41,514 bases of DNA from a virus: positions 1 to 41,514 of the IMG/VR virus record IMGVR_UViG_3300020021_000023. The stretch is one strand, 5' to 3'. Shown here piece after piece: positions 20,347 through 41,514 of this stretch. Position numbers and translations under genes: made by a program. Positions within the stretch are counted from its first letter, which is position 1. Every line of letters begins with the position of its first letter. The notes under the pieces are model-generated. The model made no database searches and was not told where the DNA came from. It worked only from the letters and a program-made list of their open reading frames with translations.

Positions 20347-20487
20347 TACTCCCTGGGCATTATGGGGCGTGCAATCCAGGCTTTTTCCTGATACGATCAA
20401 AACCGTCCTCGGGAGCGCGGCGGCGCACTGGCTGAACCCTTTCCGCCGAACAACCGCGTTTCCCTTGGGCAGAAAGAAAGGGTTCAA
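20347..20487. other. Intergenic region with shared 3' flank sequence
   Basis: 141 bp without a clear gene. It carries TTTTTCCTGATA (about 20381-20392), also present after the 23998 gene at about 26155, and ends with AAGAAAGGG, the ribosome binding site of the next gene. It could be a terminator, promoter or recombination footprint. No boundary element is present. Confidence 0.35.
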
Positions 20488-20730
20488 ATGAACACACCAG
20501 GTCCATCCGCCTCCGGCGCACACACCCGCGTAACCTTGCAGCGTACGGGCATGCCGCTTCAGATTCACGCAACAATCAGTAGCTTCGACCGGAAGACGGG
20601 AGAGTTTACCGCGCTGCTCGATATCGATCCTCAGGGCTCGCCCGCTGAAGCTTTTACCCCGGATGTCAGCACGGGCGTCATTAGCGGGTACACGGATTCC
20701 CTCGGCTTTTCCTGGCAATTGGTCCGGTAA
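20488..20730 (+). CDS. Small unknown protein, 80 residues
   Basis: MNTPGPSASGAHTRVTLQRTG..., then FDRKTGEFTALLDIDPQG and GVISGYTDSLGFSWQLVR, predicted mostly beta. AAAGGG lies 6 nt upstream. Unknown; stands between the secreted protein and a glycosyltransferase. Confidence 0.6.
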   Translation: MNTPGPSASGAHTRVTLQRTGMPLQIHATISSFDRKTGEFTALLDIDPQGSPAEAFTPDVSTGVISGYTDSLGFSWQLVR

Positions 20731-28204: not shown

Positions 28205-28572
28205 TCGTCCAGGATGGGGTTGAGGTTCTCGAATCTATCAGCCTGGCGTTCCCGAACATCTCTCCGGTGGACATGGCCCACCTGTTTGACCGTTGCAGCG
28301 TCAAGGTTACCGTCAACCATAAGCTGATCGCAGACCCCTCACTTAAGCACTTTGATCCGGTAGGAGATTGGCATCGCTTCGAACTCGAATACAAAGTAAA
28401 GCCGGGCGATTCTGTGGTAGTCCACTTCGACACCGTCCCCCCATTCACGACAGAATACGGCCTGACGCTTAATGCTGCTTTGAGTTTTCGCGGGAACATT
28501 AACGCCCTCCACCTGGCCGGACGCTTCAACGCCGAACGAAGCCACCCCGGAAGACCGGAGGCCAAAGCATAA
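28201..28572 (+). CDS. Class B cassette protein, 123 residues
   Basis: GTG start, mostly beta: VTVNHKLIADPS, FELEYKVKPGDSVVVHFD, YGLTLNAALSF. Tail HLAGRFNAERSHPGRPEAKA encoded by E27, matching the C-termini of the 14896 and 39580 proteins. Its TAA overlaps the M23 start. Function unknown. Confidence 0.65.
   Translation: MIVQDGVEVLESISLAFPNISPVDMAHLFDRCSVKVTVNHKLIADPSLKHFDPVGDWHRFELEYKVKPGDSVVVHFDTVPPFTTEYGLTLNAALSFRGNINALHLAGRFNAERSHPGRPEAKA
28513..28566 (-). repeat. Boundary element E27, reverse, class B right end
   Basis: CTGGCCGGACGC...GGAAGACCGGAGGCCAAA. Same class as E13 and E52. Confidence 0.9.
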
Positions 28573-30712: not shown

Positions 30713-30993
30713 TTTGGGTTGGCCTCCGGTCTTCCTTGTTCGGCTTCGGGCGGCTGTCGGCGTCCGACCAGGTCGGGGACTAGATTCTTCCCAACGAAGA
30801 GGCGCTTGAACCGTTCGCCGTCCACCTTGACGAGGATTCGCTTGTCCGTGACTTTTTCCACGATTCCCTTCAATGTCGGCATGGTCCTGTGCATGACTCG
30901 CATTCCGGGGAGAAATACTGGTCCTGGTCGAACGCTTTCAGGCTCACGTGCAGAACCCGCGCCGACTGAGGCCAAAACATCATCGTTTGCCAT
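30709..30993 (-). CDS. KOW-like small protein with translated element at both ends
   Basis: 94 residues from ATG 30993 (AGGA 8 nt upstream). Residues 6-24 (VLASVGAG-SAREPESVRPG) are read through E32. The core TLKGIVEKVTDKRILVKVDG-ERFKRLFVGKNLV looks like a KOW-type beta motif. The end DLVGRRQPPEAEQGRPEANPK is from E31. A shorter start at ATG 30903 would skip E32. Candidate RNA- or protein-binding adaptor. Confidence 0.65.
   Translation of the reverse strand: MANDDVLASVGAGSAREPESVRPGPVFLPGMRVMHRTMPTLKGIVEKVTDKRILVKVDGERFKRLFVGKNLVPDLVGRRQPPEAEQGRPEANPK
30719..30772 (+). repeat. Boundary element E31, forward, class B
   Basis: TTGGCCTCCGGTCTTCC...GCGTCCGACCAGG. Translated in reverse sense as LVGRR...GRPEAN. 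Pairs with E32. Confidence 0.85.
30923..30976 (-). repeat. Boundary element E32, reverse, TGGTCGAACG variant
   Basis: CCTGGTCGAACGCTTTCAGG...GACTGAGGCCAAAA. Nearly the same as E49 in its inner 28 bases. Confidence 0.85.
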
Positions 30994-35559: not shown

Positions 35560-35613
35560 TTTGGCCTCCGGTCCGGCTTAGTGGCTTCGATCAGTCTGGG
35601 AGCGTCCGACCAG
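35560..35613 (+). repeat. Boundary element E46, forward, class B
   Basis: TTTGGCCTCCGGTCCGG...AGCGTCCGACCAGG. Pairs with E47 (class A). Partly translated as LVGRSQTDRSH. Confidence 0.85.
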
Positions 35614-35829
35614 GATTGAGTATTCCAACCGCTTGATTGCTTCCTTCAGATGGATAACCTCTTCCATCGATTCAGCCCACTCCGCACCGGTCTGGCATTT
35701 CGCAATATCCAGCACCTTGGAAATCCTGCCTTTCAGCCAAAAGATTACATCCGCAGTTTGCAGTTCGGCGACAGCCATCCGAAGGCTCTCCATCGCACGC
35801 GACATATCGGCGGTTATCGTTTCGCACAT
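35578..35829 (-). CDS. Helical cassette protein ending LVGRSQTDRSH, 83 residues
   Basis: MCETITADMSRAMESLRMAV, then ADVIFWLKGRISKVLDIAKC and WAESMEEVIHLKEAIKRLEY. Predicted helix-rich; unknown. Start overlaps the previous stop (TAATG). Confidence 0.65.
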   Translation of the reverse strand: MCETITADMSRAMESLRMAVAELQTADVIFWLKGRISKVLDIAKCQTGAEWAESMEEVIHLKEAIKRLEYSILVGRSQTDRSH

Positions 35830-37349: not shown

Positions 37350-37580
37350 TTCCTTACGCAGAAAATGCGCAACTGGTTGCGTAATATGTTGCGCAAGAAC
37401 GCGCACCCGGTTGCGTCTACCATCCTTTTTAACTGGATACAACCTTTTTGATAGAAAACAACAACAGCCTGGGCGAACAAATGGAGTATTGCGGGTTGTT
37501 GTTGTTGCTGGGTACAATTCTCTCCTGATTCCGTGATAAGATAAGTCTGGGTCCAGGCTGCTCAGCACCCATTGAGCGGA
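37350..37580. promoter_or_regulatory. Candidate origin and divergent control region
   Basis: A gene-poor stretch of about 230 bp between divergent genes. It has three iteron-like sites: TGCGCAACTGGTTGCGTA (37366-37383), TTGCGCAA (37389-37396) and GCGCACCCGGTTGCG (37401-37415), followed by an AT-richer part and a dyad of CAACAACA against TGTTGTTG (about 37460-37508). The same 18-bp palindrome recurs twice inside the initiator gene. This fits binding sites of the adjacent replication protein, and an origin or operator here. Confidence 0.6.
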
Positions 37581-37599
37581 ATGGTAAATGCTCCGGTGA

Positions 37600-37658
37600 G
37601 GCGGCGTGGCTTCGTCTCCTGGCCGCCAACCGGGGCAATAACTTTCTTAGGAGACGAA
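37600..37658 (+). promoter_or_regulatory. Hairpin sequestering the initiator ribosome binding site
   Basis: TTCGTCTCCT (37611-37620) is a perfect 10-bp complement of AGGAGACGAA (37649-37658), which contains the Shine-Dalgarno AGGAG of ATG 37662. A competing stem GGCGGC (37600-37605) with GCCGCC (37622-37627) overlaps the left arm. This could act as a translational switch for replication control. Confidence 0.65.
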
Positions 37659-37661
37659 CAA

Positions 37662-38627
37662 ATGGCTTCGCCTGCGCTGGTTTCGACAAAGACCCCGACC
37701 GCTGGATTTTTCCAAGTCCCCAGTTCCTTCGCCGAAAACCAAGCTTCCATGATTCCCGCTGAAAGAGCGCTGGGGCTCATCCTATTTCGCCGCGCAACAG
37801 ACAGCCGGGGAATCACTCACTTTGAAGGCACTGCTACGATATCAGATCGTACGTGGGAATCCTGGACGGGAATGAAACCCCGCATGAAGGAACTCGCGAT
37901 CAAGGGCCTACGCGAACGCGGTCTTGGAGTCGAGGGCCGGGGCGATACCGCGAAATTCCGCTTCGATGTCAACCGCTGGAATGAATCACTGAAAGATCAA
38001 ACCCGTTCCAACTACGACCCGAAACGAACCGAACGCGATCAAGCCGCGGCGGCCAAAAAGGTACATCCGGATTGCGCAACCAGTTGCGCGAAGCTTCGTG
38101 AACTGCAAGCCAAAGAAGGCGGATCAAATCAGACAAGTGCTTTGCTTGTAATGCCAGTCGCGCAACCAGTTGCGCAAAGCAAGAAGTCCGTATCGTCCGA
38201 TCCGGAAGTAAAGTGGGTAAAAACTCTGGCCGCGATGCGGTCGCAGTTTGCCTCGGCGGGCGTCGAGTTACTATTGAAACTCATCGCGATCCTCTGGGCG
38301 ATTACCGGGCTCGACAAGGTTTCGGATTACGTTCTCGCTGAAGCGATCAAGCAGGCGTACGCGGAAAGTCTTGGCCGGTGGAGGTCGCCGATGCTTCTCC
38401 TTACCACGGTTCCCAATGTGCTCAAGGGCTGGAAGGCCAAGGGGCAACCGATGGACGACACGGGCGAGGATGCCGGGCATGTTTCCTTGTCGCCTCCCAG
38501 TGCTCGCGATGTGGAGCGGGCGCGGAAGATTGCCGACGATGTCAAATCGGGACGAAAGGTTAATCCTCCGTACGATCCATTCGACATTGAGTGGGCGGCG
38601 CAAGTTTTGAGCGAAACGAAGACCTGA
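37662..38627 (+). CDS. Replication-initiator-like protein
   Basis: 321 residues. FQVPSSFAENQASMIPAERA, then LGLILFRRATDSRGITHFEG and ISDRTWESWTGMKPRMKELA-IKGLRERGL form a winged-helix-like region (about 16-90), as in plasmid and phage initiators of the RepA/DnaD type. The C-terminal third is helical (LDKVSDYVLAEAIKQAYAES), perhaps for partner loading. The palindrome TGCGCAACCAGTTGCG occurs twice in its coding DNA. The start at 37662 has TAGGAG; an in-frame ATG at 37581 could give a 27-residue longer form whose translation would melt the hairpin. Confidence 0.7.
   Translation: MASPALVSTKTPTAGFFQVPSSFAENQASMIPAERALGLILFRRATDSRGITHFEGTATISDRTWESWTGMKPRMKELAIKGLRERGLGVEGRGDTAKFRFDVNRWNESLKDQTRSNYDPKRTERDQAAAAKKVHPDCATSCAKLRELQAKEGGSNQTSALLVMPVAQPVAQSKKSVSSDPEVKWVKTLAAMRSQFASAGVELLLKLIAILWAITGLDKVSDYVLAEAIKQAYAESLGRWRSPMLLLTTVPNVLKGWKAKGQPMDDTGEDAGHVSLSPPSARDVERARKIADDVKSGRKVNPPYDPFDIEWAAQVLSETKT
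38073..38090. promoter_or_regulatory. Iteron-like palindrome inside the initiator gene
   Basis: TGCGCAACCAGTTGCGCG. Same core as sites at 37366 and 38159. Confidence 0.55.
38159..38177. promoter_or_regulatory. Iteron-like palindrome inside the initiator gene
   Basis: CGCGCAACCAGTTGCGCAA. Encodes AQPVAQ; the near-perfect palindrome argues for a protein site rather than chance codon use. Confidence 0.55.
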
Positions 38628-39580: not shown

Positions 39581-40044
39581 TATGGTTTGGCCTCCGGTCT
39601 TCCGTCGTTCTGCGATTCGGCGGGGTCGCGTCCGACCAGGTCAAGCGCTGCTTGCACGACGGCCAAACGCTTTTCAGCGTCCCTCAATTGCTGCTTATAC
39701 AACGGCAGCACCATGTTCGCGGCCGCTTTCATGTCCGGACTTTCGCCGACAAAAAGCAGCGAGGTAGCTTCGATGGATGCTCGCAGGCTCTCCACTCTTT
39801 CTGTCGCTTCGTAAAGATCATCCGGACTGGTTGCCGGGCTTGCCTGCGAATCCCTCAACCTCTGTTCGAATTCGCAGCACAGATAATTTCTGATCGCGAT
39901 TTGCAGTGGAGCGATTCCCAAACCCGGAAAGACGCGCGGTAGAATCGCGCACAGTTCGGACGCTAACGTCTCAGCGGCTTCGATATCTTCGCGCAGATCA
40001 TCGTCGGAAGGCACCCAATAATACGGATCATCTGGCGGAAACAT
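39580..40044 (-). CDS. Class B cassette protein, 154 residues
   Basis: MFPPDDPYYWVPSDDDLRED, a helical middle (FEQRLRDSQASPATSPDDLY, SLLFVGESPDMKAAANMVLP, LYKQQLRDAEKRLAVVQ) and the E52 tail LVGRDPAESQNDGRPEAKP. GGAGGGATTCC from E53 precedes ATG 40044. The gene fills the E52-E53 cassette. Unknown. Confidence 0.7.
   Translation of the reverse strand: MFPPDDPYYWVPSDDDLREDIEAAETLASELCAILPRVFPGLGIAPLQIAIRNYLCCEFEQRLRDSQASPATSPDDLYEATERVESLRASIEATSLLFVGESPDMKAAANMVLPLYKQQLRDAEKRLAVVQAALDLVGRDPAESQNDGRPEAKP
39586..39640 (+). repeat. Boundary element E52, forward, class B right end
   Basis: TTTGGCCTCCGGTCTTCC...GCGTCCGACCAGG. Same class as E13 and E27; partner E53 is the matching left class. Confidence 0.9.
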
Positions 40045-40109: not shown

Positions 40110-41514
40110 TTACGCCGCACTGTTTCCTCCAATCTCAATGACTCCATCACTAGGTGCTGACTCTTCCTCCTCATCCACTGGTAGCGTAAAGAACTGTTCT
40201 AAAAACGCCATGCGTTGCTGCTCTGGTCCAATCTCGACACTCAACTGCGGATGCTCGGCGATCATCTGCCCAAGCACACCGGGTCCAAGCTCACGCCGCA
40301 TATCTGCCCACTTGAACATGCCATGTCCTTCTAAGAACCAATCCCGGAAGTAGAACCCTCCCAAGCCGTCCGGATCTTTGAAGCGCTCCATCATTTGCGG
40401 GGCAATGTGAACAACGAACATTCCCCACTTGTTGCAGTGCTGCAAGAACGTCCGCTGTTCAGGCGTCAGATTCGGGTCTTCGGCCGGCGCCGTCGTTGCT
40501 GTTGTGGCTTGTGGCGGCGGGCCGTGTGGTGGCGGTGCGGCGGGGAGTGCTTGCGGGTTCGTCTGCGGCGGCGTCCAGGCGTGCGGGGCGGGCTTCGACT
40601 TGCCGTTGTTGATCATCTCCAGTACTCCGGGAATTGCTTCAGACACGCCCTCAACAATGGTTTGCAGCGGGTTTTCCCACCATGCACCGGGCTTCGAATC
40701 GCCCATCAGTTCCTTCGCGGCAAGCAGGGCAGGCTGGATTTCCTTGATCTGCTCGAGCAGGTTCTTCTGGGGGGTGGTTGCCTTGTTGCGGAGTTCCTTC
40801 AACTCTTCGCGAAGCTCTTTCCGATCGGCGCGGAGTTCTTCGATTATCAGATTGAAGGCTGAATTGTCCGGCGGCAGGGGCGCGGCCGGTGCGGGCTTGT
40901 TCAGCGCGGCATCGATCAACTTCCCGACCAGAACATCCGAACCGCTGCTCTTGCTCGCGAACCGCTCTACCATGTCCATCTGCTCTTTCATGCTGAACCC
41001 TGGGGGATACATGTTAGCGACTCCGTTCTGTTGTTGCTGCTGCGCGATTAGCTTCGGTCCTGCCCACTTCCAAACTTCGTTTGCGGGATCGTCGATCCAG
41101 TCTCCAGGCGGAACCCGCGGCGGATAGTCCATGTTCAGGATGTCGAAATATTCCTTCGCCCATCGCTTGTACTCCCCCGTCGTCTGGTCGATGTTCAGGA
41201 TATCGATGCGATAGACGCCCGAACCCTCGTCGAGCATGATTCGATCCTTGTCGAAAGGACCCGCATACTTGCGGATGTTGATCGGCCTTCCTCCGCTCCG
41301 GCGGTCGACCGTGGGCGCGACTCGATAGAGGTAGGCGATAGTGCGATCCCAGTCCGCGGGCTTGTAGTTTGCGAGTTCGAGCCAGATATCGCGATCGACG
41401 CGGGTTCTTGCGGCGGCGGGCAGCGGTTCGTCTTCATCGTCGGTTGGCAGGGGTGGGGGCGGCTGATTATTCCGGGTTTTCGATCCCTTCGGCCTTCCCG
41501 GACGCCTTTTCTCA
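40110..41514 (-). CDS. Junction-spanning protein, main part (continues into 204-1)
   Basis: The larger part of the 489-residue protein. After the junction come RDIWLELANYKPADWDRTIA and KYAGPFDKDRIMLDEGSGVY. Residues at about 243-285 form a coiled coil (IIEELRADRKELREELKELR) and a Pro/Ala-rich linker follows at about 330-372. The C-terminal domain has FLQHCNKWGMFVVHIAPQMM and FYFRDWFLEGHGMFKWADM, ending acidic. The N-terminal AT-hook-like patch, coil and linker suggest a DNA-associated adaptor or scaffold. It is the largest minus-strand gene and has no recognised family. The TAA is followed by E53. Confidence 0.8.
   Translation of the reverse strand, partial: EKRRPGRPKGSKTRNNQPPPPLPTDDEDEPLPAAARTRVDRDIWLELANYKPADWDRTIAYLYRVAPTVDRRSGGRPINIRKYAGPFDKDRIMLDEGSGVYRIDILNIDQTTGEYKRWAKEYFDILNMDYPPRVPPGDWIDDPANEVWKWAGPKLIAQQQQQNGVANMYPPGFSMKEQMDMVERFASKSSGSDVLVGKLIDAALNKPAPAAPLPPDNSAFNLIIEELRADRKELREELKELRNKATTPQKNLLEQIKEIQPALLAAKELMGDSKPGAWWENPLQTIVEGVSEAIPGVLEMINNGKSKPAPHAWTPPQTNPQALPAAPPPHGPPPQATTATTAPAEDPNLTPEQRTFLQHCNKWGMFVVHIAPQMMERFKDPDGLGGFYFRDWFLEGHGMFKWADMRRELGPGVLGQMIAEHPQLSVEIGPEQQRMAFLEQFFTLPVDEEEESAPSDGVIEIGGNSAA
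41376..41514. repeat. Terminal direct repeat, right copy (circular overlap)
   Basis: Counterpart of 1-139; identical over 41389-41514. Removing one copy joins the junction-spanning reading frame without a shift. Confidence 0.9.

Follow-up and report, generated by a model that had tools for sequence, protein, structure and literature searches.

A candidate pseudoknot that would capture the Shine–Dalgarno sequence of a phage replication initiator gene

The window analysed here is the whole of virus record IMGVR_UViG_3300020021_000023 (41,514 bases). A 125-bp direct repeat is present at both ends, with the left copy offset by 13 bases; because bases 14-138 equal bases 41389-41513, the window is a complete phage genome of ~41.4 kb, save for a few odd bases or a small overhang at the ends. 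This terminal direct repeat and the genes that the window has in common with other phage records identify the element as a phage, not a plasmid. Most of the encoded proteins have no match in PHROGs or Pfam, and no relatives were recovered with the structural genes of the window as bait. The phage MW202524, which encodes a related glycosyltransferase, was considered as a relative and set aside, its initiator region being unrelated.

The gene of interest is a rightward gene amid a mostly leftward region (37662-38627, + strand). Its 321-residue product is reasonably taken to be an O-like replication initiator, on the basis of weak matches and of its likeness to the initiators of the relatives described below. 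The match to phrog_678, the PHROG family of O-like initiators, is weak (E = 0.015; E = 1.8e-4 in the single-genome search), and the protein is 22% identical over the alignment to the initiators of two relatives (G002 and G003), a value below what a single search could establish. The initiators gave no Pfam match, and neither protein homologs of the window initiator nor an ortholog accompanied by the leader were found among viral contigs, GTDB genomes and annotated phages; an AlphaFold model made without an alignment (pLDDT 47.5) was too poor for a structure search. Two palindromic repeats, GCGCAACCAGTTGCGC, lie inside the gene (38072-38177, +; at 38074-38089 and 38160-38175) and are candidate origin sites; initiator genes with an internal origin often carry such repeats. 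More copies of the palindrome (37366-37415, +) are located upstream of a candidate promoter, TTGCGG-17-TACAAT (37489-37517, +), a weak consensus match found by eye and by scan and absent from a stricter scan, from which a transcript would begin near 37524. An inverted repeat, AACAACAACA / TGTTGTTGTT (37457-37466 / 37497-37506), flanks the candidate promoter.

The Shine–Dalgarno (SD) sequence of the initiator, AGGAG (37649-37653), lies 8 nt ahead of its ATG at 37662 and belongs to the segment AGGAGACGAA (37649-37658, +), which pairs perfectly over 10 bp with the upstream anti-SD segment TTCGTCTCCT (37611-37620, +), leaving a 28-nt loop between the arms. The perfect 10-bp hairpin around the SD described in the original prediction is thus exact in both arms, and is referred to here as S2. 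A second stem had been proposed to compete with it, formed by GGCGGC (37600-37605) and GCCGCC (37622-37627). This stem also exists, forming the distal 6 bp of S1, a 15-bp hairpin (37589-37637, +; the outer 9 bp are 37589-37597/37629-37637) which holds the anti-SD within its 16-nt loop; S1 and S2 have no base in common, however, and the stems cross rather than compete. Because they use different bases and cross, their topology is that of an H-type pseudoknot with the anti-SD in the S1 loop. The connecting loops are L1 (37606-37610, 5 nt), L2 (37621, 1 nt) and the A/U-rich L3, AUAACUUUCUU (37638-37648, +, 11 nt), and these lengths look compatible with helices of such size, as judged from general pseudoknot knowledge. 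An 8-bp hairpin further upstream (37558-37579, +; fold of 37556-37582: −10.1 kcal/mol, z = −2.0) resembles the first hairpin, P1, of the leaders in the relatives. An upstream in-frame ATG at 37581, likewise noted in the original prediction, is present and would add 27 residues to the initiator (37581-37661, +), but it has a poor SD and is probably not the main start; the suggestion that ribosomes starting there open the structure gained nothing beyond the open frame itself, and 27 open codons are unremarkable. S1 was also considered as an intrinsic terminator and rejected, since it lacks a following U-run in the window, and in the relatives a short U-run begins only 4-5 nt past the stem.

A 10-bp inverted repeat is unremarkable in itself (for perfect repeats with arms of 10 bp or more and loops up to 60 nt, 3 are seen in the window versus 2.35 expected), but its position over the SD is rare: a stem of at least 10 bp covered the initiator SD in 3 of 2000 shuffled leaders (P = 0.0015), and among the 106 genes of the window and one relative (G001) that have a clear SD, only one other (20488-20730, 11 bp) carries a perfect stem of such length there. 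S1 stands out from shuffled sequences (z = −4.4 to −4.6), with an energy of −29.9 kcal/mol when its loop is left open, and none of 1000 shuffles gave an equally stable fold around the anti-SD. The original prediction had further described the SD as sealed, but the energies do not show it to be unusually closed: calculated without pseudoknots, the cost of opening the SD is average (3.15 kcal/mol versus a median of 3.26 kcal/mol over the 106 genes), and pseudoknot-free folding makes the leader bistable, with the probability of the SD stem ranging from 0 to 0.97 depending on the RNA ends chosen. Sealing therefore cannot be claimed from secondary structure alone, and it is the pseudoknot, together with the relatives, that carries the case. 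Elsewhere in the window, an 11-bp perfect hairpin, TGAACCCTTTC/GAAAGGGTTCA (20433-20486), places its right arm over the SD of the 80-residue gene at 20488-20730; under a looser criterion it has the second-best pseudoknot score.

Four phage records with genes in common with the window were obtained when a dispersed repeat of ~50 bases in the window was searched in IMG/VR: 3300027609_000006 (G001), 3300043811_000165 (G002), 3300050821_013320 (G003) and 3300040398_000008 (G004). Two of the repeat patterns used in this viral search yielded relatives and one was without a match. The repeat itself, TCG(A/G)AC...GAGGCCAA, has 25 copies in the window (for example 28512-28566, 30718-30772, 35560-35614 and 39586-39640) and 34 in G001 (L015-L017), on both strands. 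Copies often immediately precede a start codon and supply its SD through their GGAGG, or else overlap a stop codon (TGAGG); in this the repeat resembles the cluster K mycobacteriophage start-associated sequences (PMC3203893), though its own sequence is different. The only GTDB contig matching the repeat pattern (L031, JAILHF010000020.1, from a Lachnospiraceae MAG) has one copy, possibly by chance.

The relatives carry two types of initiator. Those of G001 and G004 are of one type (67% identity) and have a weak PHROG match to a primosomal protein, and those of G002 and G003 are of the other and match the replication initiation family phrog_9474 (E = 3e-16 and 8e-16). Tandem 21-bp repeats, likely origin iterons, are found inside the initiator genes of G001 (L015:10943-11016) and G002 (L032:2049-2100). 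In each relative the initiator leader has two hairpins, P1 and the 10-bp P2, and immediately ahead of the SD a segment complementary to the entire P2 loop, the pairing being CCACGAA/UUCGUGG in G001, CCCGAA/UUCGGG in G003 and G004, and CCAGCA/UGCUGG in G002. In all four the loop partner forms the loop of a small hairpin, P3, which has the SD as its 3' strand; an alternative reading of the leaders is therefore a pair of kissing hairpins. In G002 and G003 the SD next to the loop partner belongs to a short ORF lying between the structured leader and the initiator, of 18 codons in G002 (L032:2634 down to 2578, − strand; overlap ATGA) and 11 codons in G003 (L035:13672-13707; overlap GTGA); as the stop of each overlaps the initiator start, translational coupling to the initiator is probable.

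Every tabulated pair of P1, P2, P3 and the loop pairing is retained in the four relatives, where the loop-to-SD-region complementarity is conserved, at the same locus, through compensatory changes. One P1 pair is variously A-U, C-G and U-A, further double changes are seen in P2 (G-C to A-U), P3 (C-G to A-U and U-A to C-G) and the loop pairing (C-G to A-U and A-U to C-G), and G001 has a matched one-base insertion on both sides of the loop pairing. The pairs were tabulated by script from arms chosen by hand (MAFFT placed the loop partners one base off), and with four sequences, three of them close, the compensation is covariation in kind and not a statistical test. The window leader has no sequence similarity to those of the relatives, and the covariation therefore supports the architecture and not the exact pairs of the window; the plan, in which the loop of a leader hairpin is complementary to the SD region, is nevertheless the same at the initiator locus of the window and all four relatives. 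G003 and G004 have nearly the same leader ahead of unrelated initiators. The leader has thus been kept independently of the protein behind it and behaves as a regulatory module.

When the 352 predicted genes of the five phages (from a simple gene caller) were ranked by a pseudoknot score, which is a sum of stem energies and not a full free energy, the window initiator came first (−45.1), and the G001 and G004 initiators, at −28.6 each, took fourth and fifth place. The short G002 and G003 ORFs, whose length kept them off the gene list, scored −29.5 and −28.6, such that the initiator leaders of all five phages reach −28.6 or better; among 4224 shuffled leaders, 8 reach −28, one reaches −36 and none reaches −40. 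Strong scores near an SD were also obtained at L034:2846-3391 (−) in G002 (−34.6) and at L016:12945-13121 in G001 (−39.0), neither with a known family. A gene-blind scan of both strands of the five genomes, for hairpins with a downstream complement of the whole loop, returned 7 matches against 2.3 expected; four of these have stems of 10 bp or more, and they are the initiator leaders of the four relatives. A looser scan for loops of the window type (6-bp stem, 8-nt partner) was not specific (3 seen, 3.7 expected), so that the case of the window rests on its full 15-bp and 10-bp structure.

We infer from these results that the 5' leader of the initiator mRNA probably acts in cis as a translational brake. 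S1 (37589-37637) would fold first during RNA synthesis and display the anti-SD TTCGTCTCCT in its loop; the emerging SD would then be captured by this loop as the 10-bp S2, and the resulting H-type pseudoknot would bar ribosomes from the initiator start codon, keeping basal initiator synthesis low until the lock is opened or outcompeted. The stabilizing or opening factor is, as a best guess, an RNA-binding protein of the phage or its host, and might be the initiator, which would then regulate itself; such autogenous binding is conjectured from the example of T4 gene 32 and gene 43 (PMC3014915). A brake is the simplest reading for the window, because the pairing buries the SD itself. As an explanation of the whole, we give the SD-capturing pseudoknot brake a probability of about 0.64. 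The interpretation in the original prediction is supported in part. Structural control of initiator translation is favored, whereas copy-number control of the plasmid type does not suit a phage genome; since the window is not a plasmid, the timing of replication onset is the more fitting target of control.

The loop partner of the relatives lies next to the SD and does not cover it, and the pairing there could therefore repress or activate, with P3 either locked shut or pried open. The latter leads to an activating role of the kind found in IncI-alpha plasmids, in which the upstream loop would pair beside the SD and pry open the SD-holding P3, so that the initiator is translated. The position of the loop partner within the P3 loop, with the SD as the P3 3' strand, in four of four relatives agrees with this, as does the pseudoknot that switches on repZ, the initiator gene of ColIb-P9 (according to titles cited in PMC10724649). 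We nonetheless regard activation as unlikely: the S2 arm of the window covers the SD, with no real P3, and the pairing there must hide it; a promoter for an antisense RNA was not found by the sigma-70-type consensus scan; and an upstream leader ORF of the plasmid type is absent. It is less probable again that the leader is plainly bistable (in essence the view of the original prediction), with S1 and an extended SD hairpin exclusive of each other in practice, S1 alone leaving the SD open, and transcription speed, temperature or a ribosome on the leader setting the balance and hence expression. The near-equal energies of the pseudoknot-free folds, and the dependence of the SD stem on the RNA ends, speak for this model, but exclusion is not forced, because S1 and S2 share no bases, and the relatives keep the loop-to-SD-region pairing together with the hairpin that encloses it.

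Chance must also be weighed, namely that the SD stem of the window is a functionless complementarity in a G+C-rich leader and only the leader of the relatives is real. Perfect 10-bp repeats do occur at the chance rate in the window, its leader has no close relatives, and the loose scan for its type was not specific; set against this are the rarity of such a stem at the SD (P = 0.0015), the stability of S1 (z = −4.5), the top rank among 352 genes, and the recurrence of this architecture at the corresponding locus of each of the four relatives, which together make chance improbable, to a slightly greater degree than bistability. A riboswitch like those for preQ1 or SAM (SAM-II), in which a small-molecule ligand would stabilize an SD-occluding pseudoknot, is the least credible of these explanations: it has the same topology, a hairpin loop paired with the SD region as an H-type pseudoknot, but no Rfam covariance model matched the window or the searched regions of the relatives (L015, L032, L035 and L039) at the gathering score, the leaders gave no meaningful weak match either, and conservation of unpaired sequence is slight between G002 and the other relatives and absent with the window. 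The SD-capturing brake thus remains our preferred reading.

Some plasmids are known to control their replication initiator through an RNA pseudoknot, and the nearest known parallels to the present leaders are those of the IncI-alpha type and of T4 gene 32. As in the RepZ/RepA leaders of the IncI-alpha, IncB and IncL/M plasmids, of which ColIb-P9 repZ is an example, a leader hairpin loop can pair at the initiator SD in the window and in the four relatives; in the relatives a second hairpin, P3, also holds the SD and the loop partner, and in two of them a short ORF is probably coupled to the initiator. Unlike in the plasmids, these two short ORFs lie 3' of the structure and are not upstream leader ORFs; the window offers nothing but the in-frame ATG (37581) and an ORF of 3 codons starting at ATG 37588, and it has only a 3-bp candidate for P3, which does not amount to an SD hairpin. 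The original prediction remarked on the lack of an obvious antisense RNA, and a scan limited to the sigma-70-type consensus found no antisense promoter in the window, G002, G003 or G004, and one poor candidate in G001. The element is moreover a phage, with no protein relation seen, and the plasmid pseudoknot, reported to be the switch for repZ translation in the titles cited in PMC10724649, activates, whereas the window pairing covers the SD and predicts repression.

In the preQ1 and SAM-II riboswitches a hairpin loop pairs downstream to form an H-type pseudoknot that takes in the SD, and the Escherichia coli rpsO pseudoknot likewise takes in the SD region. The phage leaders differ from these riboswitches in having no covariance-model match or conserved ligand core, and from the rpsO (S15) translational operator, which contains a pseudoknot (PMC3014915), in that the latter controls a ribosomal protein gene and has no sequence relation to them. 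The gene 32 pseudoknot of T4, T2 and RB69 is, like the one proposed here, a pseudoknot in a phage mRNA leader upstream of a replication protein gene, but the T4 structure lies ~67 nt upstream of the start, nucleates gp32 binding and does not itself pair with the SD; in 2010 it was described as possibly the only viral pseudoknot in translational autoregulation (PMC3014915). No description of the present leader was found in the open-access literature. The phage leaders thus resemble both plasmid initiator pseudoknots and SD-capturing operators and are assigned to neither; the plasmid family is not invoked because the upstream leader ORF is absent, the window has no SD hairpin and an antisense RNA was not found.

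We propose, tentatively and at somewhat less than even odds, that an undescribed SD-capturing pseudoknot or kissing-loop module precedes the initiators across a clade of uncultured phages, is kept when an unrelated initiator takes the place of the original, and governs when replication begins with no antisense RNA involved. If this is true, the clade would use a plasmid-like pseudoknot principle to decide when replication starts, and would have conserved the leader although the initiator behind it was exchanged.
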